Shown: positions 1 through 13,305 of the stretch, piece after piece
Layout: every line of letters begins with the position of its first letter
How positions within the stretch are numbered: the first letter of the stretch is position 1
Assembly: GCA_002729015.1 (NCBI GenBank)
Contig: PBVO01000002.1
Coordinates: 1-15,853, forward strand
From: Candidatus Poribacteria bacterium
Lineage (GTDB): Bacteria > Poribacteria > WGA-4E > UBA9662
Reading direction: 5' to 3'
DNA length: 15,853 nucleotides
Notes under the pieces: generated by a model
Told to the model about the DNA's origin: nothing
Databases searched by the model: none
Seen by the model: the letters and a program-made list of their open reading frames with translations, nothing else
Position numbers and translations under genes: made by a program

Positions 1-729
1 GTTTGTTGTTGGTAGATGGTTGGACTTGATGATGCTGATACCAGCAACCTTCAAGACTGTTCCATCTGCGTATGCTCCAGATCCACCCCAGTCTCTGTTG
101 AGTACATCAGTTGTTTGAGCCAACTTATAATATTCTGTTGGGCCTAAGACGAGGGTACGTCCCTCAGCAGGAACATTGTTAATGTCCATCTGCTCAGCCG
201 CTGACCACATAGCAGCTACAAGGTTTGCACCTGTAATAGCAGCTTTGTTTGCAGCAACAATCTTGATCCGAGTACCACCAGGTAGGTCAGTGTTGAAGTT
301 AGTACCAGTACGTGCAGCTTGAGCAATAGTTGCAGCTACATTCTTATCAAAAGTGTAAGCTAATGCGTTGCCCATCTCAGTTGAGTACTGAGATCTTACA
401 TCATAATGATTCTTAGCCTCGTCTATGTCTGCAATGAAAACATTACTAACAAGTTTGTCATCTATGTTGATAACAGCTTCAGCATGTTTGATTGCATTAC
501 CTGTTAGCTGTGTGCCTGGCGTATGGTAGGCAGTTGAGCTGAGTCCGATAATTGGAAATTGTGCTGATTTGCCTGATGAGATAGTTCTTACAGTATGAAG
601 ACTCTCGAACACCGTGGCTTTACGGAAAGCAGAGAGAACCTCTCCACTAAAAACCTTGAGGAAGAGAGCGTCATAAGAAGTACCTGTCGCATTGACAAGA
701 CCCAGCCGTGAGCTGGTGAAGTTAGCCAT
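1..729 (-). CDS. Major capsid protein (T7 gp10-like), N-terminal 243 residues; cut by the left edge
   Basis: The frame is open from an ATG at 727-729 to base 1, so the C-terminal part lies outside the window. The protein begins MANFTSSRLGLVNATG and continues with a long open stretch typical of T7-type major capsid proteins: the early segment VFSGEVLSAFRKATVFE, then TVRTISSGKSAQFPIIG, a DIDEAKNHYDVRSQYSTEMG segment, and GRTLVLGPTEYYKLAQ. These fit the HK97-fold coat protein that forms the icosahedral shell. It lies directly downstream of the scaffold gene, as gene 10 follows gene 9 in T7. No strong Shine-Dalgarno sequence precedes the ATG; a TAGG sits about 12 nt upstream. The 115-nt spacer before it is the largest in the structural block and could hold its own late promoter. 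The family call is confident; the full length is unknown. Confidence 0.93.
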   Translation of the reverse strand, partial: MANFTSSRLGLVNATGTSYDALFLKVFSGEVLSAFRKATVFESLHTVRTISSGKSAQFPIIGLSSTAYHTPGTQLTGNAIKHAEAVINIDDKLVSNVFIADIDEAKNHYDVRSQYSTEMGNALAYTFDKNVAATIAQAARTGTNFNTDLPGGTRIKIVAANKAAITGANLVAAMWSAAEQMDINNVPAEGRTLVLGPTEYYKLAQTTDVLNRDWGGSGAYADGTVLKVAGISIIKSNHLPTTN

Positions 730-778
730 AAAGAATAAAACCTAGAAAAAAATGAGTGCCTGACCTCAATTCTTTCCA

Positions 779-815
779 CACTGGGTATCCTTCGCAAAGG
801 GCCGTAGCTTCAGTG
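779..815 (-). other. Stem-loop in the scaffold-capsid spacer
   Basis: A CACTG/CAGTG outer stem (779-783 with 811-815) encloses a second small stem CCTT/AAGG (789-792 with 797-800). It lies in the 115-nt spacer between scaffold and capsid, where T7-like phages often carry a processing site or late promoter. The stems are short, so this is only a candidate RNA-processing or stability element. A T7 run further downstream lacks a good stem and is not called a terminator. Confidence 0.3.
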
Positions 816-821
816 AATCGG

Positions 822-840
822 TCTAGGTATCTAAATGATA
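822..840 (-). promoter_or_regulatory. Candidate phage promoter or regulatory motif upstream of capsid
   Basis: The minus strand reads TATCATTTAGATACCTAGA just after the scaffold stop codon. A very similar 20-mer, TATCATATAGGAATCCTAGA, occurs in the early spacer at 10951-10970. Both follow a gene end in which ATAAGA is found and both precede a downstream gene. A shared intergenic motif ahead of the capsid gene would suit a promoter for the phage RNA polymerase, but two copies are thin evidence. Confidence 0.25.
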
Positions 841-844
841 ACTC

Positions 845-1672
845 TTATATGACATTTGATCTAGCAAGTTTACTTTCTACTTTCTTTCTAAAGGCAGGAT
901 CAGATTGATAAAGAGGATCATTCATTGCTGCTACAACCTGAGCCATTGATTCATATTTATCGGCTGGTCCTTTAGCAGCTTTACCTCCAATTAATCTAGG
1001 TTCGATGTTTGCTTGAGCTTGATAACGACTTTGTAAACCACCGATTACAAGTCTGATTTGATCAAGATCTGTTGTCTTAATTGCACGATCAAAGGCTGCT
1101 TTCTCTCCATCTGTTAATGCAGTAGCAGCCCAAGTGATCATGTCATCGTAAGCCTTCTCACCTCCAAACTCTTGTTTGATATCTAAAACTTGTTGAGCTG
1201 CAAGTTGAGAATCTTGTGTCGCTTTAAATTGAACGCCTTCAAGATAAGCGTCCACCATATCTTTATTAAAACCTGCCTCATTAAGGGAGGTGTAATCCTC
1301 TTCCGTTAGCTGACCTGTCTGTTGCCAACGATCATTCATTCCACCGAAGTCAATACCTGCCTCTTCAAAGCGACCACCAATAAAATCTCCATAGATTTCT
1401 TTTGCGTCACTTGTAGTTTCAGGTTGTTCTTCTTCTGATTTGGTTTCTGTCTCAGTTGTTTCAGCAGTGTCAGTAGGTTCACCCTTACTTAATTTCTGTT
1501 GAAGTTCCTGATAACCCTTCTCTAAATCCTCAACTGATTTGTATTTACCAGCGAGGAGTTCAGCAGATTCAGATGTGGATTGTTCAGCCTTTTCAGATTC
1601 CTGAATAGCGGCTTGATCTTCTAAGGATAAAGCTGGGGTTGGTTCATCCTTAATAGTGATTGAATCGGGCAT
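845..1672 (-). CDS. Scaffolding / capsid assembly protein (T7 gp9-like)
   Basis: This 275-aa, strongly acidic, Glu/Gln/Thr-rich protein sits between portal and capsid, the position of T7 gene 9. The segment ELLAGKYKSVEDLEKGY near residues 39-55 is typical of scaffold proteins of T7-like phages. A low-complexity acidic stretch rich in Thr and Glu (about residues 67-90) follows, and the C-terminal end is basic and helical (DPAFRKKVESKLARS). Scaffold C-termini usually bind the coat protein during procapsid assembly, and the protein leaves the head before or during DNA packaging. The ATG at 1672 is the only reasonable start, although it has no clear Shine-Dalgarno sequence. A 15-nt gap separates it from the upstream Pro/Lys-rich ORF. 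The length is close to T7 gp9 (about 307 aa). Role follows from family and position. Confidence 0.87.
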   Translation of the reverse strand: MPDSITIKDEPTPALSLEDQAAIQESEKAEQSTSESAELLAGKYKSVEDLEKGYQELQQKLSKGEPTDTAETTETETKSEEEQPETTSDAKEIYGDFIGGRFEEAGIDFGGMNDRWQQTGQLTEEDYTSLNEAGFNKDMVDAYLEGVQFKATQDSQLAAQQVLDIKQEFGGEKAYDDMITWAATALTDGEKAAFDRAIKTTDLDQIRLVIGGLQSRYQAQANIEPRLIGGKAAKGPADKYESMAQVVAAMNDPLYQSDPAFRKKVESKLARSNVI

Positions 1673-1687
1673 GGTCTGTGTTGTGAA

Positions 1688-1936
1688 TTACTTAATGGTG
1701 ATATGTCCAGGTCTATCGTGAATGACCTGTGGCTTCTTAGGTTCTTCTGGAGCCTTAGTGGATTTCTTAGGCTTCTCTTCTTTGACAACTAATTCCTTTA
1801 CATCCTTATCAGGTGGTGGAACTTCTTTAGGCGGTGTCGCCTTGGGTATTGGTGGGGCCGCTGGGGACTCCAGCTTCGGTGACTGCTGTGGGGAGGGCGT
1901 TTGGGACTCCTCCTTCTTCTGTTGACTGGGGGCCAT
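1688..1936 (-). CDS. Small Pro/Lys/Glu-rich protein overlapping the portal 3' end
   Basis: The 82-aa product is low-complexity: repeated proline and lysine/glutamate (PAAPPIPKATPPKEVPPPDK, then EEKPKKSTKAPEEPKKP) with a short ordered-looking C-terminus, HDRPGHITIK. No domain is recognised. The start is well supported: AGGAG lies 6 nt before the ATG at 1934-1936, one of the best ribosome binding sites in the window. The gene overlaps the last 110 nt of the portal gene in another frame, so the same DNA encodes two proline-rich tails. Its place between portal and scaffold suggests a minor head or assembly role, but that is inferred from position only. It is probably disordered. A spurious ORF is possible but unlikely given the ribosome binding site and the 139 nt of unique coding sequence filling the portal-scaffold gap. 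Confidence 0.62.
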   Translation of the reverse strand: MAPSQQKKEESQTPSPQQSPKLESPAAPPIPKATPPKEVPPPDKDVKELVVKEEKPKKSTKAPEEPKKPQVIHDRPGHITIK

Positions 1937-3563
1937 AAGGTGCTCCTGGTTGGGTGTAATTTTTCACCAACTGTGCGGCGGCTGGTGATTGCAACAGGGA
2001 ACTCATTTGTTCCTGTTGTTGCATCTTATTCTGAGCTGTTTGTTCTTCAATTCGTTCTAGTCGTAATTGCTCAGAAGTTTTAACTAAATTAGTAGTGTCA
2101 ATAGATGCGCTTGCTGCAAGTCTACGCAAAGCTTCTTCCATGTTCAAGTACTGAGCCATCACCTCTGGACCTAAAGCTTGATGACCGATACTTATAAACT
2201 CAGTTAACTTATTCATATCATCACCTCTACCTATTGCTTCTAATCCTGTAATTGGTTTGGGATTAACTAAGGGTTCTCCATTCTGTTGGTTAACAGGGAA
2301 CTGAGGTAACTTACCTTGACGTTGAAGAATATACATTAACCTTTTAACTAAAGGTAGTTGTAGTTCTTGGGTAAGTATGGAATACAATCCTCCGATGGAT
2401 GCTTCGAGCTCCTGGCTCATATAGCGGATTTCTTCCGCAGTGACTCTTTCGCCTGGTCTTTGTATTGCGCTGTTAAGTAAGAAAGCAAACTGCATACGAC
2501 CTTCTATCCGATCAATAATGTTATTAACTATCTGTAGGTCTTGACTCTTCTGACTTTGAATAACGCTGACATCATTAGCATTACCCTGAACGATTGCACC
2601 GTTTGCTGCTGATGATAATGTCCTTGGTCTAGTAGTACCGTTAGGATTAACTAAGAACAGAATCTTTGCAGCGGCTGCACTTGCTTCGAGTGCTGATTGA
2701 TATAGAGATTCGAGCGCAGTTAAGTCACCGTAATAGGCTTCAACATGTGAGCGACCGTATTCTTCTGTGTCAATTCTCTCAAAGCGTAATGGAATCCAAG
2801 GGCTGCAATCTTCAGGACACATACCGTGTGTGCCTGGTATTTCTTTACCCTTTGCTTCTTGATACCAGATAGCTTTGTTATCTATAAACTTTACACATGT
2901 ATAGAGTTTAATTGTTTTCTTAATAGGTCCAATATTTTCCTGTGATTTATCATTAACAGGAAGAAAATCTTCTGGTAAAGATTCAGGATAGACTTCTTCT
3001 TCTACTAATATTTCAGTAACAGTACCCATTGGGTCACGTACTACACAATATCTATCAAGATGAATAACTCTTATTCCTTCTGGGCCTACATAAAGAAGTA
3101 CATTTCCTGCTACTAATAGTTGCTTGAAAGCTTCGTGCATAGAAGCTCGAGCTGACATGGTTTCAAGCATGGTCATTACAGCTTGCTCAACCTTTACTAA
3201 TGCAGTGTCGAGTTCTGTCTTTATCGTTGGATCTCGTTGATCTAATTGAAGAGCCAACGAATCCATTTCTAATTTAAAGAAAGGAGTATTAGGAGGGAAA
3301 AGACTAAGACCTAAGCGTGCTGATAAATGACTAACACCTCTTGCTCCAACTGATTGATAAGGAGTTTTTAGCTTTCCATGATCTCCCATGTTGGAGTCAG
3401 GAACCAAGCTAGGTATTGTAACTTTGCTACAATCTCTTGCTCTTTGAAGGAAAGGATCTCTTGATGTGACTAGCTGTTGGTAACGAGCAGCTAGTGTTCC
3501 ATCTCGATCGTCATCGTAAGGCTTACCTTGACTATCAACGTCAGTAGTTAGTGTTAATTCCAT
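1827..3563 (-). CDS. Portal protein (head-tail connector, T7 gp8-like)
   Basis: The 578-aa product matches the T7 gp8 type of portal in length (T7 gp8 is about 536 aa) and in sequence features. It opens with AARYQQLVTSRDPFLQRARDC, followed by the conserved early segment SVGARGVSHLSARLGLSLFPPN, and has the mid-protein GRSHVEAYYGDLTALESL. The helical stretch ERVTAEEIRYMSQELEASIG is the typical C-terminal crown/wing region. The protein forms the dodecameric ring through which DNA enters and leaves the capsid and on which the terminase docks. The ATG overlaps the upstream stop codon as TAATG, implying translational coupling with the gp7.3-like gene. The last 40 residues are Gly/Pro/Thr-rich and overlap the start of the next ORF. 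Confidence 0.95.
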   Translation of the reverse strand: MELTLTTDVDSQGKPYDDDRDGTLAARYQQLVTSRDPFLQRARDCSKVTIPSLVPDSNMGDHGKLKTPYQSVGARGVSHLSARLGLSLFPPNTPFFKLEMDSLALQLDQRDPTIKTELDTALVKVEQAVMTMLETMSARASMHEAFKQLLVAGNVLLYVGPEGIRVIHLDRYCVVRDPMGTVTEILVEEEVYPESLPEDFLPVNDKSQENIGPIKKTIKLYTCVKFIDNKAIWYQEAKGKEIPGTHGMCPEDCSPWIPLRFERIDTEEYGRSHVEAYYGDLTALESLYQSALEASAAAAKILFLVNPNGTTRPRTLSSAANGAIVQGNANDVSVIQSQKSQDLQIVNNIIDRIEGRMQFAFLLNSAIQRPGERVTAEEIRYMSQELEASIGGLYSILTQELQLPLVKRLMYILQRQGKLPQFPVNQQNGEPLVNPKPITGLEAIGRGDDMNKLTEFISIGHQALGPEVMAQYLNMEEALRRLAASASIDTTNLVKTSEQLRLERIEEQTAQNKMQQQEQMSSLLQSPAAAQLVKNYTQPGAPYGPQSTEEGGVPNALPTAVTEAGVPSGPTNTQGDTA

Positions 3564-3877
3564 TAGGGATTAGTAATACCTAGACCAGTAGATGATTGAA
3601 CTAAATTCTTATATCCTTCTCTACCTGTTTTTCTTCTATTAGTAGCAGCAATATCTAAGGCAGGGGCGGCCATGTCTGCACTTTTTTCTGGAGCTTTAGG
3701 AGCTTTCTGATCTGCTATTCTTTTCTGTTCTTCATGTCTAGCTTTCGTATAATCAAACTGTTGTTGCCAACGGACATCAGCCAACCTCGCTTGTTCCTTA
3801 GATGCCTCTAAGGATTCTCTTTGCAAAGCAATTGACGCTGAATTGTCTGAGCTTCTGCCCCCGCCACCTCCGCACAT
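3563..3877 (-). CDS. T7 gp7.3-like tail/virion protein with an MCGG N-terminus
   Basis: This 104-aa protein lies immediately upstream of the portal gene and is coupled to it by TAATG, exactly where T7 carries gene 7.3. Its C-terminus, NRRKTGREGYKNLVQSSTG followed by LGITNP, resembles the T7 gp7.3 ending (recalled as GRKKARAGGKKSLSVARSSG followed by GGINI). T7 gp7.3 is a small virion protein needed for tail assembly or adsorption. The middle (residues about 15-55) is rich in Gln, Glu, Lys and Arg and looks like one long amphipathic helix. The N-terminus is MCGGGGG, with Cys at position 2 followed by a glycine run; another protein in the window (15479-15703) also starts MCGG. The family match rests on the C-terminal pattern and position, seen by eye. 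Confidence 0.6.
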   Translation of the reverse strand: MCGGGGGRSSDNSASIALQRESLEASKEQARLADVRWQQQFDYTKARHEEQKRIADQKAPKAPEKSADMAAPALDIAATNRRKTGREGYKNLVQSSTGLGITNP

Positions 3878-3879
3878 AA

Positions 3880-4065
3880 TTAAATTTCGGTACTGTTTTG
3901 GTCAGTGTAAACGGAATACAACATTCTTACCACTGACCTTGCACCTACATAATGCCATATCTCTCTATCTTCTTCATCAGTAGAGGGACATTTCTCAGGA
4001 TAAATCTCATCTAATCTCTTTAATAAAGCCTCATCAATAGGAGGCCAAAGCTCTTCATCATTCAT
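3880..4065 (-). CDS. Small conserved phage protein, 61 aa
   Basis: The product starts MNDEELWPPIDEALLKRLDE and contains REIWHYVGARSVVRML. It resembles small proteins that many T7-like phages encode just before the tail/portal genes, though their function is unknown to me. The ATG at 4063-4065 overlaps the exonuclease stop codon as ATGA and has GGGAG 8 nt upstream, so it is preferred over an in-frame TTG five codons earlier. The protein is acidic with two predicted helices and no membrane segment. The gap to the next gene is only 2 nt, so it belongs to the same operon. No function is assigned. Confidence 0.72.
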   Translation of the reverse strand: MNDEELWPPIDEALLKRLDEIYPEKCPSTDEEDREIWHYVGARSVVRMLYSVYTDQNSTEI

Positions 4066-4793
4066 AGTGTTGGCTCCCAAAGTTTTACATTACCTGTTGT
4101 ATGATCGTACTCCCCGTCACGCAAGATACGTGTCAAGCGTGCAGTCATAATGGCATCAGCATAGGTTTTCTTCTTCTTAACATAAGCAGCGTGAACCTTA
4201 GCCCACATTTCTTCCATAGTTTCTGCGTCACCTAATAATTTTTCTGCTGTAACTGGACCGACACCAACTAAACCTTCTACATTATCAGTCTTATCTCCCG
4301 ATAAAGTTTGTAACATCCAGTGTCGATCAGCTTTCTTACGAGTAACTAATTCAAGATCATCATTAGCCAAGAGAGTACAAGGAACACCTCGCATATCTTT
4401 ATCAGGCGACACGATTACAGGGTTGTCATACTTCTGTCCTGTTGCAAGTAACCCCATAACATCATCACCTTCTAATCCATCAAAGCTAATAGCATGGAAC
4501 TCTTTAGCTACTCTTTCTCTTATATTTTTCAGACCTAGAGGTTTACGTTTACCTAGTCGATTAGCTTTGTAATCTTGATAGATCCCATGTCTGAAGGTGG
4601 GATAATCAGAAAAGCACATGATCGGATTACCTGGACTGATGATCTGATACTGAGCAACACGATCTTCAATCAGTTGCATTGCATCACGTTCATCTAGGTG
4701 GAGGGTATGAAGATTTTCATCCCATCTAAAATCTTGTTCACATGCACAGCATGAAGAATAGATAAGCCAATCAGCGTCAATTAATAAAGTCAT
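4062..4793 (-). CDS. 5'-3' exonuclease (T7 gp6-like, FEN/PIN-type nuclease)
   Basis: The 243-aa protein has the metal-binding and DNA-binding signatures of flap/5' exonucleases in order: LIDADWL with D6 and D8, FRHGIYQDYKANR around residues 67-79, GLEGDDVMG with E108, D110 and D111, IVSPDKDM with D131 and D133, and GDKTDNVEGLVGVGPVTAEK (167-186), which is the helix-three-turn-helix motif. In T7 this enzyme degrades host DNA and removes RNA primers during replication. The protein is shorter than T7 gp6 (about 300 aa) but keeps all acidic residues, so it is likely active. It overlaps the primase-helicase stop codon as TAATG and its own stop codon overlaps the next gene as ATGA. In T7, DNA polymerase gene 5 lies between helicase and exonuclease; here nothing does. 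Confidence 0.93.
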   Translation of the reverse strand: MTLLIDADWLIYSSCCACEQDFRWDENLHTLHLDERDAMQLIEDRVAQYQIISPGNPIMCFSDYPTFRHGIYQDYKANRLGKRKPLGLKNIRERVAKEFHAISFDGLEGDDVMGLLATGQKYDNPVIVSPDKDMRGVPCTLLANDDLELVTRKKADRHWMLQTLSGDKTDNVEGLVGVGPVTAEKLLGDAETMEEMWAKVHAAYVKKKKTYADAIMTARLTRILRDGEYDHTTGNVKLWEPTL

Positions 4794-6412
4794 TAGAAGT
4801 AAGAAGACATTGGTACAGATAGACGACCTGTGTCTTGGTCGTAAAGAAGTTTGTCAACAGGGCCAGTAAATCCTGCGTGTCTATTTTTCAAACAGCGCAG
4901 TTGCATTTCACTACGTTCTGCTGCATCTCCCTGTTGATTTCGTTCACAGGAGATAACGGCGTCCGATAATTGGGCTATTGAATGTGAACCTCTTAAATGG
5001 CCAAGCGAGACTTGGGCTCCCTCCTCATGGCCTCTCCCTTCGGGGCGTTTGAGATGACTGACAAGAAACAATCCAACGCCAGTCGATTCAACAACTTGTC
5101 GAAGCTTGGTGCATGTGACATCAAGAGCACGCCTCTCATCACAGTCAGTGAGGCCACTAACGATGATGGTCAAGTGATCAATGAAGACAACATCTACACC
5201 TTCTACATTCGCAAGATATTGGATCTGTTCTACAAGGCGATCAGGGTCCATCGAACCGAAGTGGTCATAAAGAAAGAGACGTTGAGTAGCACAAAGACGA
5301 TCAAAGGCTGATCGAGTTGTCTCTTCATCTGCAAGAGATGGATCAAGATGAATAGGTAGGTTGAGTTCAACTCCAACTATCCCTTGCAATGTGCGTTGAA
5401 TACTTTCTTCGAGTGCGATGTATCCAATCTTTAGTCCTTGAATGAGGAAGTGATGAGCCAGCTCCCTACACATTGAACTCTTCCCTGTTCCACTACCAGC
5501 GCAGATAGTAATCATCTCGCCTTTGCGATATCCCTTTAGATATTTATCTAGTTGGGGCCAAGGGTATTTACATATAGCAGTAGCTCCAGGTTTGATTAAT
5601 TCATCCCATAGATCCGCTGCATTAATGATCCCGTCTGGTCTGACGGGTGTTGCTTTCCAAAGCAAATCCCGCAACAGCTCTGCCTCTCCAGCGATGAGCA
5701 TCTCATTAGCGTCCTTGCGTGGCAATCTTGCGATAGCTGCTTTTCCAGCAGGTAATACTTCAATTGCTTTTTCGGCAGCCGCCATACCTGGTTCATCCGA
5801 ATCCAGGCAAAGAACAATTCGAGCGAAGTTGGATAACCATTTCAAGTTTGCAGATATATATTTGCTAGCACTCTGCGCTCCATTAGGCAATGAAACAACA
5901 GGAAAGTAAGTACCATTAGATGATTTTGTGGCTTGTGCCACGCTCATGCAATCAATTTCGCCTTCGGTAATTGTTACAAACATATTTTGTGTGCCATGTT
6001 GTCTCCATAAATGTTGACCCCATAGCTGCATGTCTGAACAGTCACCCACCCAACTGAATCTTTTGTCCTTAGTTCTTATGTGTTGAGCACACGGTTTGCC
6101 TAGTTGATCTCTAAAGGTAGAGACCTGAACAGGTTGTCCATGTCTTTCAGTTGTTCCATATCCATATAGTTCTGCTGTCTCCTTAGTGATTCCACGCTTA
6201 GTTAAAGCTTTGGAAACAATTCGACACTGATCTATAAGGTCAGGCTTTTTCATGGGAGTCACAGTCATTGGTCGTTTCTCTTTCTTTGAAGGTTGGAATT
6301 GATACCCGCAGCCATAGCAATGTGCATGTCCGTCATCGAACCAAGCAAGATTATCTTTGCTATCACACTCAGGACATGGGCCGTGTCTCAGGTATTTGCT
6401 TTTGCTTTTCAT
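4793..6412 (-). CDS. Bifunctional DNA primase-helicase (T7 gp4-like)
   Basis: The 539-aa protein has the whole gp4 domain order. A four-cysteine zinc domain comes first (C13, C16, C32, C35; CPEC and CYGCG). A TOPRIM primase core follows, with ITEGEID (E150, E152) and LCLDSDEPGM (D204, D206). The DnaB-type helicase has Walker A AGSGTGKS at 305-312, a catalytic glutamate in YIALEES (E335), Walker B VVFIDH at 408-413, and the motifs LVSHLKRPEG and HLRGSHSIAQLSDAV. It unwinds DNA at the fork and lays down primers. Length is close to T7 gp4 (566 aa). T7 gp4 ends in an acidic tail with a final Phe that binds DNA polymerase; here the end is LSVPMSSYF, with Phe kept but no acidic run. GGGAG lies 4 nt before the ATG. 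The adjacent 40-aa ORF overlaps its start. Confidence 0.96.
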   Translation of the reverse strand: MKSKSKYLRHGPCPECDSKDNLAWFDDGHAHCYGCGYQFQPSKKEKRPMTVTPMKKPDLIDQCRIVSKALTKRGITKETAELYGYGTTERHGQPVQVSTFRDQLGKPCAQHIRTKDKRFSWVGDCSDMQLWGQHLWRQHGTQNMFVTITEGEIDCMSVAQATKSSNGTYFPVVSLPNGAQSASKYISANLKWLSNFARIVLCLDSDEPGMAAAEKAIEVLPAGKAAIARLPRKDANEMLIAGEAELLRDLLWKATPVRPDGIINAADLWDELIKPGATAICKYPWPQLDKYLKGYRKGEMITICAGSGTGKSSMCRELAHHFLIQGLKIGYIALEESIQRTLQGIVGVELNLPIHLDPSLADEETTRSAFDRLCATQRLFLYDHFGSMDPDRLVEQIQYLANVEGVDVVFIDHLTIIVSGLTDCDERRALDVTCTKLRQVVESTGVGLFLVSHLKRPEGRGHEEGAQVSLGHLRGSHSIAQLSDAVISCERNQQGDAAERSEMQLRCLKNRHAGFTGPVDKLLYDQDTGRLSVPMSSYF

Positions 6413-6491
6413 TTTTCTCCCAGTGGTGGATCAGGAGTTTTAATTCCTTGATTCTTTTTTCTGCATAGTCAATGCGTTCAGTAACGTTCAT
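6369..6491 (-). CDS. Putative 40-aa helical protein overlapping the primase-helicase start
   Basis: A short ORF starts at the ATG 6489-6491 and encodes MNVTERIDYAEKRIKELKLL followed by IHHWEKNEKQKQIPETRPMS. The first 28 residues form a clear amphipathic helix with a heptad-like spacing of Ile/Leu. The ribosome binding site is strong: GGAG with 5 nt to the ATG. The ORF overlaps the end of the 81-aa gene and the first 44 nt of the primase-helicase gene. It fills an otherwise empty 65-nt gap in a block where every gene overlaps its neighbour, which supports it as real. Function is unknown. Only comparison with related phages could settle whether it is translated. Confidence 0.5.
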   Translation of the reverse strand: MNVTERIDYAEKRIKELKLLIHHWEKNEKQKQIPETRPMS

Positions 6492-6723
6492 CTCTTCTCC
6501 AAGGTTTAGGCTCATGACTATCAATCACAAGGCACTTCCATTCTGGATTTTTTTCCTTGACTATCTCAACTGCCTTAGCTGCTGATGATGCACGTTGGAA
6601 TACAAGAGTGGCCTTGTCATCTTTTTTATCAGGGTCAATAACCTTGATGGTGAACACTTTGATTTGATTAGCAGAAATAAAAGAAGTCTCTTCTTCTGCT
6701 ATTACTCTTTGTCGTTTAGTCAT
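6478..6723 (-). CDS. Hypothetical 81-aa protein between endonuclease I and primase-helicase
   Basis: The product begins MTKRQRVIAEEETSFISANQ, has a beta-rich middle (IKVFTIKVIDP, ATLVFQR), a short helix (SAAKAVEIVKEKNPEW) and ends KPWRRDERY. This looks like a small alpha/beta fold. No family is recognised. The start at 6723 is chosen because its ATG overlaps the endonuclease stop region (ATGACTAA), the coupling style used throughout this block; a longer in-frame version would overlap the endonuclease by about 90 nt. It occupies the place of lysozyme gene 3.5 in T7 but shows no amidase motif, so it is not lysozyme. A role in nucleic acid metabolism is only suggested by its neighbours. Confidence 0.68.
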   Translation of the reverse strand: MTKRQRVIAEEETSFISANQIKVFTIKVIDPDKKDDKATLVFQRASSAAKAVEIVKEKNPEWKCLVIDSHEPKPWRRDERY

Positions 6724-7150
6724 ACCAAGATGAGGGGATAGTACCGCTACTCCAAATGAATCCATGCCTTGTAGCCCAAGCTCCATAGGTAATAGATTTT
6801 TTGGCACGGCTGATTTTATCTTTGGCGTTTTGGAAGCACATCCTTATATCAAGTTCAGGATGTTGCTCCTTAACGCATAGCATTTTGCGCCTGTCCTGAG
6901 CAGAAAAGAATCCTTTCAGTTCTACTACTATCCCATTACCAAGAATGAGATCAGGTGTGTACTTAGCTTGAATTACATAGTCAAGGACTATCGGTTCATA
7001 ACTAAAGGGAAGGTTGCGTTGTTGAAGGCTGGTAGCTACACCAGCCTCAAACTTACTACGATATTTAGAAGTCGGATGCGTCCTCTTCCGTTGAGGAAGT
7101 CGAGACTTCGCACGCCCCTTGGAAGTTCCCTTCCGTTGCTTCAAAGCCAT
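6716..7150 (-). CDS. Endonuclease I, Holliday-junction resolvase (T7 gp3-like)
   Basis: The 144-aa protein has the PD-(D/E)XK active site of T7 endonuclease I: E35 in YRSKFE, D67 in YTPDLIL, and E77 and K79 in VVELKG. The spacing D-10-E-2-K equals that of T7 gp3 (D55, E65, K67). It cuts branched DNA and helps degrade host DNA and resolve replication intermediates before packaging. The N-terminal 24 residues are very basic (KQRKGTSKGRAKSRLPQRKR) and are encoded in a stretch of 86 nt that overlaps, in another frame, the acidic tail of the SSB gene. No other ATG, GTG or TTG gives a sensible shorter start apart from a TTG at codon 3. The stop region overlaps the next start as ATGACTAA. Confidence 0.93.
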   Translation of the reverse strand: MALKQRKGTSKGRAKSRLPQRKRTHPTSKYRSKFEAGVATSLQQRNLPFSYEPIVLDYVIQAKYTPDLILGNGIVVELKGFFSAQDRRKMLCVKEQHPELDIRMCFQNAKDKISRAKKSITYGAWATRHGFIWSSGTIPSSWYD

Positions 7151-7697
7151 AACTTGTGGAAGATTTTGTGTATTCTTTTAGGTCAATAATTTGTGCAGCT
7201 AAAGGTTGAATCTTTATTCCCACCCCAGTAGAAGGATGGTTATAAGGAACAGCTTCAAACGAGATGCGACCAGTGGAGCCAGGTCCAATCTTGTCTACTC
7301 TCTTCTTCATCTCTTCAGACAATGGCTTGCCTTGAGCATCAAAGAGTGCAGGTGGAGTGTTCTCCCATACTGAGCCATCTTTTCTTTGACCTGATACCTT
7401 GCGTTTCATCTTGATATAGAAGACAGGCTCTCCTTCTATGTCGTCATAACCAAAGGAAGGAGGTGCTGACTTCCAATTCTTTTTGTTTGGATCAGCTTCT
7501 TTGCATTGTTTCTGGAAGCGAGTTAATAATCCTCCAAGCTGTTCTTCCATTTCACTAGCTTGATCGGCTGGGATAAGTGCAGTTACTTTCCACACTGCCT
7601 GTTCATACTTGGTGTCAGGTGTGACAAGCCATGCGTACTGATACTTACAAGTTGGTGTTGTGAGTTTGAGTCTTTCAAATTGTTGTGCAGAAGTCAT
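7065..7697 (-). CDS. Single-stranded DNA-binding protein (T7 gp2.5-like)
   Basis: The 210-aa protein lies between RNA polymerase and endonuclease I, where T7 carries gene 2.5 (232 aa). It has the alternating beta strands of an OB-fold core (YAWLVTPDTKYEQAVWKVTA, FYIKMKRKV, GRISFEAVPYNH) and ends in an acidic tail STEEDASDF with a terminal Phe. In T7 that tail contacts gp4 and the gp5 polymerase and controls DNA binding. It coats single strands at the fork and assists annealing and recombination. The start overlaps the polymerase stop codon as ATGA. The tail-coding DNA also encodes the N-terminus of endonuclease I. The gp2.5 assignment rests on length, tail and order. Confidence 0.88.
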   Translation of the reverse strand: MTSAQQFERLKLTTPTCKYQYAWLVTPDTKYEQAVWKVTALIPADQASEMEEQLGGLLTRFQKQCKEADPNKKNWKSAPPSFGYDDIEGEPVFYIKMKRKVSGQRKDGSVWENTPPALFDAQGKPLSEEMKKRVDKIGPGSTGRISFEAVPYNHPSTGVGIKIQPLAAQIIDLKEYTKSSTSYGFEATEGNFQGACEVSTSSTEEDASDF

Positions 7698-10051
7698 GTG
7701 ATGAAATAGTTAGAAGTTTGTACGGAAGTCAGATCAAGATCACCAAGCTCAGGCTTAGGTAATAGTTCATCCTTCCTTTGAATCTGTTGGGTGAGCTGTG
7801 TTGTGATTGCTGTGAACCAATCCCCTGAATACATATCAGAGAATGATTGCCTAACTGCATCCCTTAGCTTGCTCATTTCTGAGGGAGTAGTGGCAAAGCA
7901 ATCGTGTACCCCACCTATATTCTTGACACCTAGAGCTATTGCTTTGAGTGTCGAGAATGACATGTGACTTGAGTCAAATGAGTGGACTACATTCGGGCTA
8001 AGTGCATTAGCCATCCGACCTGAATCAAGATCGTCTTGATCTATATTTGTTCTGATGTCCATGTGAACGTCAGATAAATACTTGAGTCGGATGCGTGTTT
8101 GCTTGACGTTCTTGTACTCCTGATGAACTAACAAACCTGATGGTGTTGTCCACTCAAGAGGGATGTTGTCCTTACCAGCAAGACGACCAAGTTTTCTGAA
8201 CCACTCCATTGCTTTGACGGCTGGGTTAATCAAAGCTGTTGTCTCTTTATGTAAGAGCTGTGCCATGAAGTGCATGGTTGTCATGGCTCCAGGTTTAGTA
8301 GTCCATGTTTTACCAGCGAATAGATCTTTCGATCTCTTCTGAGCCCAGTCATAACAGTAGTAGTAGAAGGCAGTAGATGTAGCTGAGTAAGGACTAGTCA
8401 TCACGCACGGTTTGGCGAGCGACCTATCTGGCTCAAGCATTAACCACTTCCTTGCTCGTGGATCTTCACTCTTTCTCAATTTCTTAAGGACACTGGTCAT
8501 TACTTCGGAGTAAATATCCTGTGGCCTATCACTTGAGATGAGGTTGACTGATCTGCCCATGTCCTCTGACTTGAGGAGGGCTGCATAATGTTGGATACCT
8601 GAGCACGTGCAGTCCAGCATTATGGGCAGGGTGCATTGATAACCCCAGCCATGTTGTTTGAACTCTTTATAAGTACGAGCGAAAGCAAGAAAGCACCAAG
8701 GCTTATCAGCTCTCATCCAAAACTCAGAGTTCAACCACGGGTCATTACCTGCCCCAGTAATTAATTGTTCATGCTCTAGTACCCAGTCAACACGAGTCTG
8801 CCAATCTGATTTACCTAATCCATAGAGGTTAGCCCCATGTATTCGTAACCAATTGAGTTCCTCTTCTGTGTTGATAGGTGTGCCTTCAGCAAATAAGAGA
8901 AGCGACCTTGATACATCATTACCTTGTGGGTTGAGATAAGGAGGGCGGTAATAGTAACGACCTCTGAAATCAAGGGACATAGGGAAATAAAATTTCTCTT
9001 CATCCTTGAATCTGCGTGCAACCCATAAGGTTTTAGCTTGACCTATGCGTGCGCCTTTGGTCTTGTCATTTCTCTCATGTATTTGCTTAGCTCTTTTCCT
9101 CCACTTGAATACACCTGGATCGTCTTCATCTAAGTGCTTAGGAAATGGAGGGACAGGCCATCCATCTCTAGGAAATAAGCACCCAATTTCTAGGTTGTTG
9201 TCATAAGCATGTTCAACCTGATCAAGCATCCAGTTATTAACCATCCAAGCTACTGATTGATGGACATTTGCTGCCTTGATAAAAGGTTCATCACCTTTAC
9301 AGTTCTTAGCTACGAGTTCATCATTACTCTTCAGTAATTTGAGGGGTAATTTGTAGTACCCACCATCAGGCCAAGGTCTAGGTTCAATCACCATCGGTAG
9401 ATAGTTAGGTGTCATCAATTCTTGTTGTGCTTTAACATCCTTAATCCATGCCATGCACTCATCGGTTGCTTTAACTACCCGTCTTGCAGGTTTATAACCG
9501 TGGTCCTTGACGATTTGAATTAAGCCTGTCTCTTTAGCAATCAACTCAATAAGAAATACACCTGATGCCATCTTTTCCTTGGGCTGCCAGTTATCAGTCC
9601 ACTTCATGTGTCTGATGGCTGCCATCTTGTGTGCTTTACGATTACGACCACGCTTGAATTTAATTAGTTCATCTTTCGATGCACGATCAAGCATGGTTTC
9701 AATCCAAAGCTTGTCTGCTAAGTCCATAGCTACTGAGTGCAGCGTTGGACATGAGCTAAGACTGTCGATAACAGTGCGAAGTGAACACGCTGCTACCTGT
9801 TGAGGTGGTAGGTGAATGATCGGAGAGAGCAAAGCAAAAGATCTACCTGCTACTCCCTTCTCTATTTTCTTTCTGATAGCTCGGAGATGGATAACTATCT
9901 GATCTATTCCATGTGCAGTGAGAGCTTCACCCCACTTGGAAAGGGACTCCATCTGTCCTCGCTTGCGTATGTTGGAGAGAAGTCTCACTCGATCGCAACC
10001 AAGCGTAAGCATCTCGTCCTCGTGAGCAAGCTCGTCTTGCAGGGTCTTCAT
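7694..10051 (-). CDS. Single-subunit DNA-directed RNA polymerase (T7 gp1-like)
   Basis: The 785-aa protein has the catalytic motifs of T7 RNA polymerase: SLDFRGRYYYRPPYLNPQGN (359-378), motif A with D480 in MLDCTCSGIQH, the O-helix RSLAKPCVMTSPY with K547 and Y555, and motif C HDCFATTP with D717. It transcribes phage middle and late genes from its own promoters. It is about 100 residues shorter than T7 gp1 (883 aa), mainly in the N-terminal domain. The specificity loop keeps T7 R746 (R653 in QTRIRL) but has R655, H663 and D665 where T7 has N748, R756 and Q758, so its promoter should differ from the T7 consensus. The C-terminus is NYFIT instead of DFAFA. A 36-nt gap with no clear Shine-Dalgarno sequence precedes the ATG. 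Confidence 0.97.
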   Translation of the reverse strand: MKTLQDELAHEDEMLTLGCDRVRLLSNIRKRGQMESLSKWGEALTAHGIDQIVIHLRAIRKKIEKGVAGRSFALLSPIIHLPPQQVAACSLRTVIDSLSSCPTLHSVAMDLADKLWIETMLDRASKDELIKFKRGRNRKAHKMAAIRHMKWTDNWQPKEKMASGVFLIELIAKETGLIQIVKDHGYKPARRVVKATDECMAWIKDVKAQQELMTPNYLPMVIEPRPWPDGGYYKLPLKLLKSNDELVAKNCKGDEPFIKAANVHQSVAWMVNNWMLDQVEHAYDNNLEIGCLFPRDGWPVPPFPKHLDEDDPGVFKWRKRAKQIHERNDKTKGARIGQAKTLWVARRFKDEEKFYFPMSLDFRGRYYYRPPYLNPQGNDVSRSLLLFAEGTPINTEEELNWLRIHGANLYGLGKSDWQTRVDWVLEHEQLITGAGNDPWLNSEFWMRADKPWCFLAFARTYKEFKQHGWGYQCTLPIMLDCTCSGIQHYAALLKSEDMGRSVNLISSDRPQDIYSEVMTSVLKKLRKSEDPRARKWLMLEPDRSLAKPCVMTSPYSATSTAFYYYCYDWAQKRSKDLFAGKTWTTKPGAMTTMHFMAQLLHKETTALINPAVKAMEWFRKLGRLAGKDNIPLEWTTPSGLLVHQEYKNVKQTRIRLKYLSDVHMDIRTNIDQDDLDSGRMANALSPNVVHSFDSSHMSFSTLKAIALGVKNIGGVHDCFATTPSEMSKLRDAVRQSFSDMYSGDWFTAITTQLTQQIQRKDELLPKPELGDLDLTSVQTSNYFIT

Positions 10052-10087
10052 CGGAATACCAAAGTAATTCTCGGAATCTGACTGTCA

Positions 10088-10318
10088 CTACGTCTTAGTA
10101 CTGGAATAGAGAGCGAATTCTCTAGCCCAATTTGCAGACAACCATTCTCCAATCATTGTTCTATTCAATTCAGAGATGCCAACGTCTTTAGCTTCTGCTA
10201 ATTGAACGACCATCTCGTATTGAGTACGAGTAAGAGCACCTTGTAGCTTTACTAATGGAGAAGGTTCATGCTTAGGAGCTTGATACTCCTGTGTTTCTTG
10301 AGTAGTTTCTTCAGTCAT
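10088..10318 (-). CDS. Putative ribbon-helix-helix DNA-binding protein, 76 aa
   Basis: After an acidic, Gln/Thr-rich N-terminus (MTEETTQETQEYQAPKHEPS), the protein carries LQGALTRTQYEMVVQLAEAK then DVGISELNRTMIGEWLS. This has the shape of a CopG/Arc-type ribbon-helix-helix: a short strand, helix A with QLAEAK, a turn with Gly-Ile-Ser, and helix B with the ELNRTMI pattern. Such proteins bind operators as dimers. Its position directly upstream of the RNA polymerase gene would suit an early transcription switch. The ATG at 10316-10318 overlaps the upstream stop as ATGACTGA and is preferred to a TTG ten codons earlier. The fold call is by eye and should be regarded as tentative; the coding call is firm. 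Confidence 0.72.
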   Translation of the reverse strand: MTEETTQETQEYQAPKHEPSPLVKLQGALTRTQYEMVVQLAEAKDVGISELNRTMIGEWLSANWAREFALYSSTKT

Positions 10319-10637
10319 GGAAATAGAATTTGCGTAAGGTTGATTCAATTAAAAGATTGTTGACTGTTGGTTCAGGAAATTCTTTTTTTAATAGACGTTG
10401 AAAATTCTTTTCCTCTATCTCTTTCCATGTTGCAGCCTCATCAGTTGGAGGCGAGTCAACAATCATTTGCCAATGCGTAGCTTCTTTAGGTATGTGTTCC
10501 CAGTTAGCTGACATTGACCAGTCACTCATGCGATAGAGAACATGGTCATCGTTGTTGGCATGTTTAGCGGTTGGTTTCTCTTTACTTAGAGGAACCCAAG
10601 GGTGATCGGACATGGTGGGTGGACATAAATTTTTCAT
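10311..10637 (-). CDS. DUF551-like protein
   Basis: The 108-aa product has the layout of DUF551 proteins, small phage proteins of unknown function: an N-terminal WVPLSKEKP, a short strand HVLYR, a Trp-rich middle (MSDWSMSANW), and the diagnostic ATHWQMIVDSPP close to THWMPLPEPP. A helical extension of about 40 residues follows (ATWKEIEEKNFQRLLKKEF), ending KFYFHD. Two ATGs are possible, at 10637 and 10613; the conserved domain begins after both, so the start is uncertain. A 16-base hairpin (10641-10656) lies just upstream of the first ATG. The stop overlaps the ribbon-helix-helix gene start, suggesting co-translation. The family is inferred from the motif order. Confidence 0.7.
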   Translation of the reverse strand: MKNLCPPTMSDHPWVPLSKEKPTAKHANNDDHVLYRMSDWSMSANWEHIPKEATHWQMIVDSPPTDEAATWKEIEEKNFQRLLKKEFPEPTVNNLLIESTLRKFYFHD

Positions 10638-10710
10638 GGAGGCCTGTATATAGGCCGTGTTGTGGATGATCAGGAAGGTAACGCTCGTCCCATATATAGA
10701 GGGCGTTCAT
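10582..10710 (-). CDS. Putative 42-aa early protein
   Basis: An ORF from the ATG 10708-10710 encodes MNALYIWDERYLPDHPQHGL followed by YTGLHEKFMSTHHVRSPLGS. The aromatic-rich, low-redundancy composition looks protein-like rather than random. It begins 6 nt after the stop of the 59-aa gene and its tail overlaps the DUF551-like gene by about 55 nt, or 32 nt if that gene starts at its second ATG. AGAGG abuts the ATG, too close for an ideal ribosome binding site; GGAG lies 10 nt away. The alternative is a 78-nt spacer with two hairpins (AACGC/GCGTT at 10680-10707, GGCCT/AGGCC at 10641-10656). No function is recognised. Confidence 0.42.
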   Translation of the reverse strand: MNALYIWDERYLPDHPQHGLYTGLHEKFMSTHHVRSPLGSSK

Positions 10711-10715
10711 CCTCT

Positions 10716-10895
10716 TCACTCTCCACTCGTTTTCTCTGATCCAGTTTCGGTCCATTGCTTAGGAGGATTCTTTAGTACATGCCTAGCGAAGTCACAATAA
10801 GCAACGGCATGTTGTGTATTTGGATGGTTTCCGAGGCTTTCACTCCACTCTCTAAAGAGGTCGTAAAGCTCACGGTTCCTGGCGTACTCACTCAT
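10716..10895 (-). CDS. Hypothetical early protein, 59 aa
   Basis: The product starts MSEYARNRELYDLFREWSES and contains HAVAYCDFARHVLKNPPKQW. It is helical, soluble and charged. The start at 10895 is chosen over an in-frame ATG nine codons upstream because the longer version would begin inside a terminator stem and add the odd peptide MHLFFYALP read through the T-tract. The ribosome binding site is weak. The gene follows an intrinsic terminator, so its expression may need read-through or a separate promoter; a candidate motif is at 10951-10970. No family recognised. Confidence 0.6.
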   Translation of the reverse strand: MSEYARNRELYDLFREWSESLGNHPNTQHAVAYCDFARHVLKNPPKQWTETGSEKTSGE

Positions 10896-10906
10896 AGGTA
10901 GTGCAT

Positions 10907-10952
10907 AAAAAAAGAGGTGCATGAAGCCTTAAGTATGGTTCAGATACACCTC
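10907..10952 (-). terminator. Intrinsic terminator
   Basis: On the minus strand GAGGTG (10952-10947) pairs with CACCTC (10919-10914). The stem extends with a U-G pair, two A-U pairs, a 2-nt bulge and GAA/TTC, and is followed by seven T residues (10913-10907). It sits between the 48-aa membrane peptide gene and the 59-aa gene. Confidence 0.7.
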
Positions 10953-10970
10953 TAGGATTCCTATATGATA
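10951..10970 (-). promoter_or_regulatory. Candidate regulatory motif shared with the capsid spacer
   Basis: The minus strand reads TATCATATAGGAATCCTAGA, close to the motif at 822-840 with one indel. It lies in the spacer after the 48-aa gene and just ahead of the terminator at 10907-10952. It contains CATATAGG, loosely like the initiation core of T7-type promoters. Weakly supported. Confidence 0.25.
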
Positions 10971-10977
10971 CATATTG

Positions 10978-11124
10978 TTATCTTATAGGGTGAACAGGGG
11001 TACTAGGTTGGTTCTGTCTCATCTGTCTCATCTCTATCAATAATCCTAAAGAGAAGAACAATAGAAGGTAAATCATCAGAGACTTAAAGACATCCCACTT
11101 AGAAGGGACATAAGGTGATCGCAT
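10978..11124 (-). CDS. Small single-pass membrane protein, 48 aa
   Basis: An ORF from the ATG 11122-11124 encodes MRSPYVPSKWDVFKSLMIYL followed by LLFFSLGLLIEMRQMRQNQP and STPVHPIR. Residues about 15-31 (SLMIYLLLFFSLGLLIE) form one hydrophobic membrane helix flanked by basic residues. AGGGGG lies 3 nt before the ATG and can serve as the ribosome binding site. The gene follows the 58-aa ORF after only 7 nt, so the two are likely co-expressed. Early membrane peptides in T7-like phages often act on the host envelope or exclude other phages, but nothing here shows a specific role. Confidence 0.58.
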   Translation of the reverse strand: MRSPYVPSKWDVFKSLMIYLLLFFSLGLLIEMRQMRQNQPSTPVHPIR

Positions 11125-11126
11125 TG

Positions 11127-11149
11127 GCCCCCTATAGGTAGTCCTCTTC
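11127..11149 (-). promoter_or_regulatory. T7-promoter-like sequence, ambiguous
   Basis: The minus-strand 23-mer agrees with the T7 class III promoter at 16 of 23 positions, including GACT at -11 to -8 and CTATAGGG around the start. Against this, the same bases encode the last codons and TAG stop of the 58-aa ORF (GAC TAC CTA TAG), the following Gs can be the ribosome binding site of the next gene, and the polymerase specificity loop differs from T7. Initiation at 11132 would leave an 8-nt leader before the next ATG. It shares an 18-nt upstream segment (one mismatch) with 12906-12923. Confidence 0.35.
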
Positions 11150-11308
11150 ATATGTGGACAGTTTGTTTTTGTTAAAGCTGAAGCCTTTATATTCGGGCAT
11201 TGGATGCTGCCTAAATCTTTCTTCTAGTTCCTCGTCCGTAATCTCATGGTGGAACCACTTGTCTACATAATGAGCAGTGATGTCGGCTTCAATTTGTGGA
11301 TCGTTCAT
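11132..11308 (-). CDS. Hypothetical acidic early protein, 58 aa
   Basis: An ORF from the ATG 11306-11308 encodes MNDPQIEADITAHYVDKWFH, then HEITDEELEERFRQHPMPEY and a C-terminal part ending KLSTYEEDYL. It is acidic with a helical centre and looks like a genuine protein. AGGAG lies 10 nt upstream with GGAAG nearer the ATG, and the start overlaps the stop of the 26-aa ORF as ATGA. No family is recognised. The coding sequence covers most of a stretch that would otherwise be an unexplained gap of about 700 nt. Confidence 0.58.
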   Translation of the reverse strand: MNDPQIEADITAHYVDKWFHHEITDEELEERFRQHPMPEYKGFSFNKNKLSTYEEDYL

Positions 11309-11385
11309 CTTCCATAAGCTCCTATGTTTTTAAGAAGAATAAAAAGGAGGATGCTTACGCATCCCCAGATGATGAATGATTCCAT
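11305..11385 (-). CDS. Possible 26-aa membrane peptide
   Basis: The ORF encodes MESFIIWGCVSILLFILLKN then IGAYGR, essentially one membrane helix. It starts 2 nt after the stop of the 54-aa ORF and ends overlapping the next start (ATGA), the spacing expected of coupled genes. However, its DNA also contains a good hairpin followed by a T-tract (11341-11364), which could be the actual reason for the sequence. There is no clear Shine-Dalgarno site. Either reading, or both, is possible. Confidence 0.4.
   Translation of the reverse strand: MESFIIWGCVSILLFILLKNIGAYGR
11341..11364 (-). terminator. Intrinsic terminator-like hairpin
   Basis: Minus-strand GGATGC pairs with GCATCC around a GTAA (GNRA-type) tetraloop, followed by TCC and five T residues. 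It lies inside the possible 26-aa ORF and downstream of the 54-aa ORF. Confidence 0.5.
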
Positions 11386-11387
11386 AA

Positions 11388-11552
11388 TTATTCATTTGAA
11401 TTAGATAGTTCTTCTAGTGTTGTCTTTTGATTATTAGTTAGCCCGTTGTCTAGGTGTTGACCACCTTTTCTTAGGGCTTCACTAGGTGATGTTTTTTCAA
11501 GGTCGAATGACTCTGATTCACCGTTGCAATTGACAAAGGTAATAGAAGGCAT
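11388..11552 (-). CDS. Hypothetical early protein, 54 aa
   Basis: The product begins MPSITFVNCNGESESFDLEK and continues TSPSEALRKGGQHLDNGLTN, ending ELSNSNE. A short beta start followed by an acidic helical tail is likely. No family is recognised. Its ATG (11550-11552) is preceded by AGGTTCTACCAACT, a leader shared in form with the two 97-aa early genes (AGGTNNTACC, 10-13 nt before each ATG), which strongly supports the start. An intrinsic terminator lies only 24 nt upstream. Confidence 0.6.
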   Translation of the reverse strand: MPSITFVNCNGESESFDLEKTSPSEALRKGGQHLDNGLTNNQKTTLEELSNSNE

Positions 11553-11575
11553 AGTTGGTAGAACCTAACGTGTTT

Positions 11576-11599
11576 AAAAAATCCCTCAATTAAGAGGGA
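11576..11599 (-). terminator. Intrinsic terminator
   Basis: Minus-strand TCCCTC pairs with GAGGGA around the 6-nt loop TTAATT and is followed by six T residues (11581-11576). It lies downstream of the 97-aa gene at 11636-11929 and just after the hairpin at 11607-11627. Confidence 0.75.
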
Positions 11600-11606
11600 A
11601 GAGCTA

Positions 11607-11627
11607 GGTCAGGGCTTGAACCTGACC
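11607..11627 (-). other. tRNA T-arm-like stem-loop; possible attachment-site remnant
   Basis: The minus strand reads GGTCAGG, TTCAAGC, CCTGACC: a perfect 7-bp stem with a 7-nt loop that fits the tRNA T-loop consensus TTCRANN. An intrinsic terminator follows 8 nt later, as after many tRNA genes. No complete tRNA is present: no matching acceptor, D-arm or anticodon arm occurs upstream. Some cyanopodoviruses carry an attP copy of a host tRNA 3' end; this could be such a site, or simply a hairpin. Confidence 0.3.
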
Positions 11628-11635
11628 GCCCGCCT

Positions 11636-11929
11636 TTACGGATTAGCTTCTTGTTCAATATCAGCAATGAAGTAATAGTGATTGTGATCGTGACCCCGCC
11701 CCTTTAGAACAAATTTAAAATGTTCATTGAAGGGCCATGAATCTATAAGGGCCTGAGCTGCTCGCTCGTGGTTCTTATCAGAATCTAGGGCCGAATCATA
11801 GCCAACCGTCTTACTCCATTTCGTTTCACTGTCCCTTGTATGTGTAGCTTTAATTCTTGAGCCCCTGTAATCAGTAGGGCCAAGGTATTTAGTGACGATA
11901 CAAGGGCCAGTTAATGCTTCTAAATCCAT
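11636..11929 (-). CDS. Hypothetical early protein, 97 aa
   Basis: The product starts MDLEALTGPCIVTKYLGPTD and contains GSRIKATHTRDSETKWSKTV, then DKNHERAAQALIDSW, and ends HNHYYFIADIEQEANP. A beta-rich start, one helix (HERAAQALIDSW) and a final strand suggest a compact alpha/beta fold. It does not match a family I know. It is the second gene after the early promoter, where T7-like phages place host-takeover proteins, but no specific activity is visible. The ATG has the shared leader CTAGGTATTACCAGC. It is flanked by hairpins upstream (11953-11988) and by a T-arm-like hairpin and a terminator downstream. Confidence 0.78.
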   Translation of the reverse strand: MDLEALTGPCIVTKYLGPTDYRGSRIKATHTRDSETKWSKTVGYDSALDSDKNHERAAQALIDSWPFNEHFKFVLKGRGHDHNHYYFIADIEQEANP

Positions 11930-11952
11930 GCTGGTAATACCTAGCGAAATGT

Positions 11953-11988
11953 TGAGGGTGAGTCCCTCAGAGAGGCCCGAAGGCCTCT
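11953..11988 (-). other. Tandem hairpins in an early spacer, one with a UUCG tetraloop
   Basis: Two adjacent stem-loops lie between the two 97-aa genes. On the minus-strand transcript the first is AGAGGCC-TTCG-GGCCTCT (11988-11971), a 7-bp stem closed by the very stable cUUCGg loop. The second is TGAGGG-ACTCA-CCCTCA (11969-11953). Neither is followed by a T-tract, so they are more likely processing or stability elements than terminators. Confidence 0.6.
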
Positions 11989-11997
11989 GGGAGAGAG

Positions 11998-12291: not shown

Positions 12292-12319
12292 GTCGGTAGT
12301 ACCTGACTAGGTGGACAGT

Positions 12320-12337
12320 TGAAGGGCGAACCCTTCA
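12320..12337 (-). other. UUCG-loop hairpin upstream of the first early gene
   Basis: Minus-strand TGAAGGG pairs with CCCTTCA around TTCG, a 7-bp stem. No T-tract follows. Its loop and position match the UUCG hairpin at 11971-11988 upstream of the next early gene. Confidence 0.55.
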
Positions 12338-12878: not shown

Positions 12879-12915
12879 ATAGGGGGGAGGTAGAAAGACT
12901 TATCTTCTTCATATA

Positions 12916-12936
12916 TGGACAGTAAGTGGTGGACAG
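12916..12936. repeat. Tandem TGGACAG repeats
   Basis: TGGACAG occurs at 12916-12922 and 12930-12936. Two more copies lie at 12312-12318 and 11155-11161. The copies at 12916 and 11155 are part of a shared 18-nt block with one mismatch (minus strand ACTGTCCAYATATGAAGA). Possible protein-binding sites. Confidence 0.4.
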
Positions 12937-12963
12937 GGATTTGGGATAAGGTAGAAATAAGGT

Positions 12964-12997: not shown

Positions 12998-12998
12998 G

Positions 12999-13034: not shown

Positions 13035-13066
13035 CATTAGTGTGTAAATGAGATATAGTAAATTAC

Positions 13067-13303: not shown

Positions 13304-13305
13304 TC

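Follow-up and report, generated by a model that had tools for sequence, protein, structure and literature searches.

How does a phage with a T7-like replication region copy its DNA when the slot that holds the DNA polymerase gene in other phages is empty? The question is raised by a stretch of 15,853 nucleotides (hereafter, the window), which forms bases 1–15853 of the linear, 22,059-base IMG/VR virus record G000. The gene order on its minus strand is T7-like: small early genes, RNA polymerase, SSB, endonuclease I, primase-helicase, and exonuclease, followed by a conserved 66-aa protein, a 104-aa protein, the portal, the scaffold, and the start of the capsid gene, while the plus strand carries the terminase genes.

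The replication region and its empty polymerase slot

The primase-helicase (539 aa; positions 4793–6412, minus strand) is of the T7 gp4 type (PF21268, PF13155, and PF03796; phrog_239, E 2e-171). Pfam and PHROGs identify zinc-binding cysteines and Toprim and DnaB-like domains, the top Foldseek matches are T7 gp4, and the protein is predicted to be complete and to have the T7 gp4 fold. Its stop codon holds the start of the gene for the T7 gp6-type 5′–3′ exonuclease (243 aa; 4062–4793, minus strand; PF02739, PF01367, and phrog_107), and the junction reads TAATG, with one shared base, just as the first-pass annotation had described the overlap. The other replication and transcription genes, all on the minus strand, encode a T7 gp3-type endonuclease I (144 aa; 6716–7150; PF05367, E 2e-34; phrog_945), a gp2.5-like SSB with the acidic C-tail EEDASDF (210 aa; 7065–7697; phrog_112, E 4e-20, with a Pfam score under the cut-off, 20 versus 27 bits), and a T7-type single-subunit RNA polymerase (785 aa; 7694–10051; PF00940, E 2e-81; phrog_414). 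Two small early proteins on the same strand have no Pfam or PHROG match, namely one of 108 aa with 23 relatives (10311–10637) and a second from a family of ~64 aa (10716–10922). The 66-aa protein directly after the exonuclease belongs to phrog_4970 (3880–4080, minus strand). Packaging and head genes comprise the portal, or head–tail connector (578 aa; 1827–3563, minus strand; PF12236 and phrog_449), the small terminase subunit (78 aa; 13067–13303, plus strand; PF11123 and phrog_891), and the large terminase subunit (576 aa; 13375–15105, plus strand; PF22530 and phrog_38), which was used for placement. Between positions 10100 and 15105 the terminase is followed directly by the early genes; in the linear P-SCSP1u record these two blocks lie at opposite ends, and the contig probably joins genome ends here. 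Beyond the window, at about 1800–6000 of locus L001, ambiguous bases (X in the translations) occur in several frames and make gene calls uncertain.

A second IMG/VR record, G001 (31,446 bases), is 99.94% identical to positions 1–11429 of the window and extends the map beyond it: the capsid, gp11, and gp12 are followed by three virion proteins, a gp14-like one of 228 aa and two of 776 and 2556 aa, and by a T7-type tail fibre of 870 aa, the gp14-like and tail-fibre assignments coming from family searches. The two fragments, of 22.1 and 31.4 kb, overlap by 11.4 kb, and published MPP-C genomes are 37.3–37.9 kb long, with Prochlorococcus MED4 as host (PMC9860041).

The first-pass annotation had stated that no polymerase gene lies between helicase and exonuclease and that polymerase A motifs are absent from every open frame of the window, and both profile and sequence searches confirm this: no family A polymerase (PF00476) is present in the whole of G000, and tblastn queries from eight phages (nine polymerase sequences) gave no match in that record. 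The annotation had also proposed a polymerase profile search beyond the window, and with G001 added this returned no polymerase of families A, B, or C, G001 having no match to PF00476, PF07733, or PF00136; both records are linear, and the gap between them falls among the tail-fibre genes.

To place this absence in a wider setting, helicase scans of viral contigs, one set for polymerase-less loci and a polymerase-bearing control, were combined with reference phages and one scan of a genome collection. For loci that extend 2.5 kb or more past the helicase, a polymerase is present in 0/172 loci of the polymerase-less scans (53 + 17 + 102) and in 56/56 control loci (both among the matches listed, with repeated contigs included), as well as in 8/8 reference phages; the empty slot is therefore not due to chance. 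The control loci without a polymerase match, 5 of the 80 listed, all have less than 1.4 kb downstream. The genome-collection scan found 26 loci, none of them in a cyanobacterial genome, and a single close relative, L116 (55% identity), which is also polymerase-less; among the 25 of these loci with at least 2.5 kb downstream, 18 are polymerase-bearing, and the remaining seven comprise L116 and six loci with distant helicases. L116 lies on a contig binned as the MAG “bacterium TMED161” and carries a P-SCSP2-like polymerase-less helicase–exonuclease pair; its place in that MAG is perhaps a binning error.

Whole-record searches agree with the locus counts. PF00476 was found in 0/39 IMG/VR records, these being 39 of the 80 records listed by the first polymerase-less scan, in 0/2 isolates, and in 6/6 polymerase-bearing controls. 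Eleven of the 39 records are 36–43 kb long, although the records come with no completeness estimate. PF07733 and PF00136 gave nothing in 23 polymerase-less records, and a hidden polymerase recognizable by these three family models was accordingly discarded for the polymerase-less records searched. Five loci (L055, L057, L077, L081, and L083) have a weak thyX-like match between helicase and exonuclease (24–26% identity, E 4e-10 to 5e-7), in the slot that holds the polymerase in other phages.

Kinship with MPP-C and the breadth of the polymerase-less clade

MPP-C was described as being without a DNA polymerase by Cai et al. 2022 (PMC9860041), and polymerase absence in MPP-C is thus already known and not new here. 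The suggestion in the first-pass annotation that the window belongs to MPP-C or a relative proved right, the best phage records for helicase, RNA polymerase, and terminase being MPP-C isolates. For the primase-helicase, the best 19 phage records comprise 18 MPP-C isolates (17 P-SCSP1 and one P-SCSP2) and the uncultured MedDCM-OCT-S08-C159, and tblastn found no polymerase in three of those 19 (P-SCSP1u, P-SCSP2, and S08-C159); for RNA polymerase and for terminase, the best 17 records are in each case P-SCSP1 isolates. Identity to P-SCSP1u is ~58% for the primase-helicase, 66% for the RNA polymerase, and 81% for the terminase. Across nine genes (helicase, exonuclease, SSB, RNA polymerase, terminase, portal, capsid, gp11, and gp12, the capsid being compared from a partial protein), the window is 42–81% identical to P-SCSP1u and in 9/9 is nearer to it than P-SCSP1u is to P-SCSP2, as for the SSB (42.5% versus 28.7%); the window therefore falls within the published spread of MPP-C. 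The smallest supported set containing both isolates includes the window in the exonuclease tree, and in the helicase tree the window branches just outside it. The divergence of the two isolates deserves mention in its own right: their ANI is given as 88.3–88.4% (PMC9860041), whereas by blastn only ~5.0 kb of P-SCSP1u and P-SCSP2 aligned, at 76%, their proteins are 24–52% identical, and the divergence of their RNA polymerases and terminases is far above expectation for one species group.

The accessible text of PMC9860041 reports that MPP-C lacks psbA, hli, mazG, rnr, talC, and thyX, and tblastn likewise gave no match to these genes in the window, G000, or G001. Auxiliary genes (by tblastn) and tRNAs yielded nothing as host clues. 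The early gene family phrog_3199 was set aside as an indicator of the host, since its 17 phage records have mixed, noncyanobacterial hosts and are uninformative.

The polymerase-less phages related to the window form a single group. A helicase was taken as polymerase-linked when its locus gave a polymerase match, and as polymerase-less when the locus gave none and had either 2.5 kb downstream or an exonuclease within 1.5 kb. After identical proteins were merged, the matches listed contained 267 unique complete helicases (158 polymerase-less, 98 polymerase-linked, and 11 of unknown status); with the latter 11 and three distant helicases without a polymerase match (two from Bartonella and one from a gammaproteobacterial MAG) left out, 155 polymerase-less and 98 polymerase-linked helicases among those matches were clustered at 78%, giving 11 and 73 clusters, respectively. 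One branch of the helicase tree parts the 11 clusters from the 73, with one change and an SH-aLRT value of 100, and the exonuclease and SSB trees (44 rows) show the same single split. The RNA polymerase (44 rows) and terminase (20 rows) trees, which the first-pass annotation had recommended, join the window to P-SCSP1 without fixing the place of P-SCSP2 and contain two changes each; a separate origin of two RNA polymerase or terminase types was not adopted, since the AU test does not reject a single clade (p 0.44 and 0.589). The polymerase-less state thus marks one helicase clade and one evolutionary event. Gene spacing follows the same division: among the matches listed, the exonuclease starts at most 1.4 kb from the helicase (median 9 bases) in 155/155 polymerase-less cases, a count that, like the counts 79/79 and 0/114, follows in part from the status rule, and it lies at least 1,852 bases away in 71/71 polymerase-linked cases where it was found. 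The counts free of that rule are the locus counts 0/172, 56/56, 8/8, and 18/25.

This clade is wider than its isolates. The two isolates have a GC content of 34 and 39% and the window one of 43%, while 9/19 polymerase-less records measured, with lengths of 32.6–43.1 kb, reach 55–65% in the stretches examined; among the matches listed, the high-GC kind accounts for 4/11 helicase clusters and 37/155 helicases. Ten polymerase-less loci with 58–65% GC in the stretches examined (L018, L035, L038, L049, L052, L054, L057, L060, L061, and L066) form the deepest branches of the helicase tree as drawn. Synechococcus or Cyanobium, for example, might be among the hosts of the high-GC phages. Surveys that count such phages by their polymerase gene overlook a clade that is broader than the isolates suggest. 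The family of the 66-aa protein downstream of the exonuclease is found in 11/11 polymerase-less and 30/73 polymerase-bearing clusters (among the matches listed).

The helicase and SSB tails

In T7, the acidic C-tail of gp4 ends in Phe and binds two basic patches of the polymerase gp5, and removal of 17 residues from this tail lowers processivity from 17 to ~5 kb (PMC12593628 and PMC12230644). The window helicase ends in GRLSVPMSSYF and thus retains a terminal Phe, with two acidic residues in its last 15 and none in its last 8. When a tail is defined by an aromatic last residue and at least three acidic residues in the last 15, it is present in 60/73 polymerase-bearing and in 0/11 polymerase-less clusters (among the matches listed); Fisher's test on these clusters gives p 1e-7, which overstates the contrast, as one clade is one event. 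The 13/73 polymerase-bearing clusters without such a tail, HTVC011P, HTVC119P, and S30-C28 among them, indicate that it is not indispensable. Polymerase-less helicases end 7–12 residues past the last conserved GR(L) motif, and 8/11 cluster representatives, P-SCSP1, P-SCSP2, and L033 being the exceptions, share the end P-M/L-S/D/E-x-Y-F. In AlphaFold monomer models, the last nine residues of the window helicase have a mean pLDDT of 68, with no segment below 50 (16 sequences), and the last ten residues of the control helicase L142 fall below 50 (14 sequences). The SSB, by comparison, keeps an aromatic-ended tail in 11/11 polymerase-less clusters and in 62/65 controls (among the matches listed).

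The loss of the helicase tail may be drift that followed the loss of the polymerase. None of the titles and abstracts listed by literature searches deals with it, and the word “C-terminal” is absent from the main text of PMC9860041, as is “helicase” from the accessible text of PMC10575957. What is added here to the known features of MPP-C is the clade split, the wider GC range, and the absence of the helicase tail in phages that retain the SSB tail. For MPP-C, published work leaves open how a helicase of the T7 type couples to a foreign polymerase, and the clade-wide absence of the helicase tail, together with the kept SSB tail, leads to a short list of testable contacts.

Which polymerase works at the fork

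Cai et al. considered three hypotheses, host Pol I, host Pol III, or an unrecognized polymerase, the use of a host enzyme being an inference on their part (PMC9860041). We favor, with a probability of roughly 0.6, the reading that the window phage belongs to the polymerase-less MPP-C lineage and likely copies its DNA with its own primase-helicase, SSB, and exonuclease together with a host polymerase, most likely the Pol III holoenzyme. With no polymerase in its gene set, the phage has few options other than a host enzyme. At such a fork, the phage helicase would open the duplex, synthesis would be primed by primase products or by transcripts of the RNA polymerase, the SSB would coat and anneal the strands, and the exonuclease would remove the primers. 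Since the T7-type hold on a family A polymerase is missing from this helicase, coupling is expected to occur through some other contact (the clamp, the clamp loader, or the SSB tail that the phage keeps) and not by Pol I simply taking the place of gp5; the missing hold and the precedent of satellite phage P4 discussed below are what favor Pol III. Conserved clamp-binding motifs are absent from the helicase, exonuclease, and SSB, and a QLALE-like sequence close to the RNA polymerase N-terminus was discarded as a clamp motif, as it is also found in T7.

Replacement of the lost T7-type polymerase at the fork by host DNA polymerase I is a lesser possibility, one that we think rather unlikely. Pol I is of the same polymerase family as gp5, it figures among the published hypotheses, and the kept acidic tail of the SSB could contact it; however, 11/11 clusters (among the matches listed) lack the helicase end that in T7 holds a family A polymerase, and Pol I is chiefly a repair enzyme (PMC9860041). 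Less probable by a clear step is a very divergent phage polymerase outside all family models, which Cai et al. also proposed (PMC9860041). Unassigned proteins do exist: among 797 frames of at least 330 aa from 264 polymerase-less loci, 87 were assigned to nothing in the comparison set, and the 776- and 2556-aa proteins of G001 belong to no Pfam or PHROG family. Yet 0/797 frames match a polymerase, the replication region has no spare room, and both large proteins sit among virion genes (the 2556-aa protein at L093:5120–12790, minus strand), where they align at 24 and 31% identity with the co-located 953- and 2564-aa proteins of P-SCSP1u, the former of which has a lysozyme-like domain. Most improbable of all is a normal polymerase gene outside the two fragments. 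Such a gene could lie in the short stretch among the tail-fibre genes that neither linear record covers, but the usual slot is contiguous and empty, and PF00476 is missing from both complete isolate genomes and from all 39 IMG/VR records searched, 11 of them 36–43 kb long.

Within the favored reading of a host polymerase, most likely Pol III, further steps are more speculative. Tentatively, the T7 replisome may have had its polymerase swapped, the helicase having lost its acidic tail along with the polymerase gene and gained the short P-M/L-S/D/E-x-Y-F end of 8/11 clusters as its coupling to the host enzyme, in a clade that would span low-GC Prochlorococcus phages and phages of other hosts with ~60% GC. 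The early families of ~115 aa (10311–10637) and ~64 aa (10716–10922) occur in 7/11 and 6/11 polymerase-less clusters, respectively, and in no polymerase-bearing cluster (among the matches listed); our guess is that they act on host replication, with the former as a possible host-takeover factor. An out-of-frame ORF inside the helicase gene, kept in 10/11 clusters, was set aside, since conservation of the helicase alone could keep the frame open.

Among known systems, the nearest are the MPP-C isolates (P-SCSP1a–u and P-SCSP2), which share with the window the order RNA polymerase–SSB–endonuclease I–primase-helicase–exonuclease and have no polymerase, although P-SCSP2, unlike the window, has no annotated endonuclease I. 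The window nonetheless represents a separate lineage, given its helicase (~58%) and RNA polymerase (66%) identities and its GC content of 43% versus 34–39%. S08-C159 (GU943031) has a polymerase-less helicase–exonuclease pair like that of the window but groups with P-SCSP2, to which its helicase is 81% identical, as against 55% to the window. With the T7 replisome (gp4, gp5, gp2.5, and thioredoxin) the window shares the gp4-type primase-helicase and a gp2.5-like SSB with an acidic tail; it differs in having no gp5, the family A polymerase of T7 itself, and a helicase without the acidic, Phe-ended tail. The alpha primase-helicase of satellite phage P4 works with host Pol III, and although its protein architecture differs from that of the window helicase, it offers a precedent for the use of host Pol III by a phage primase-helicase.
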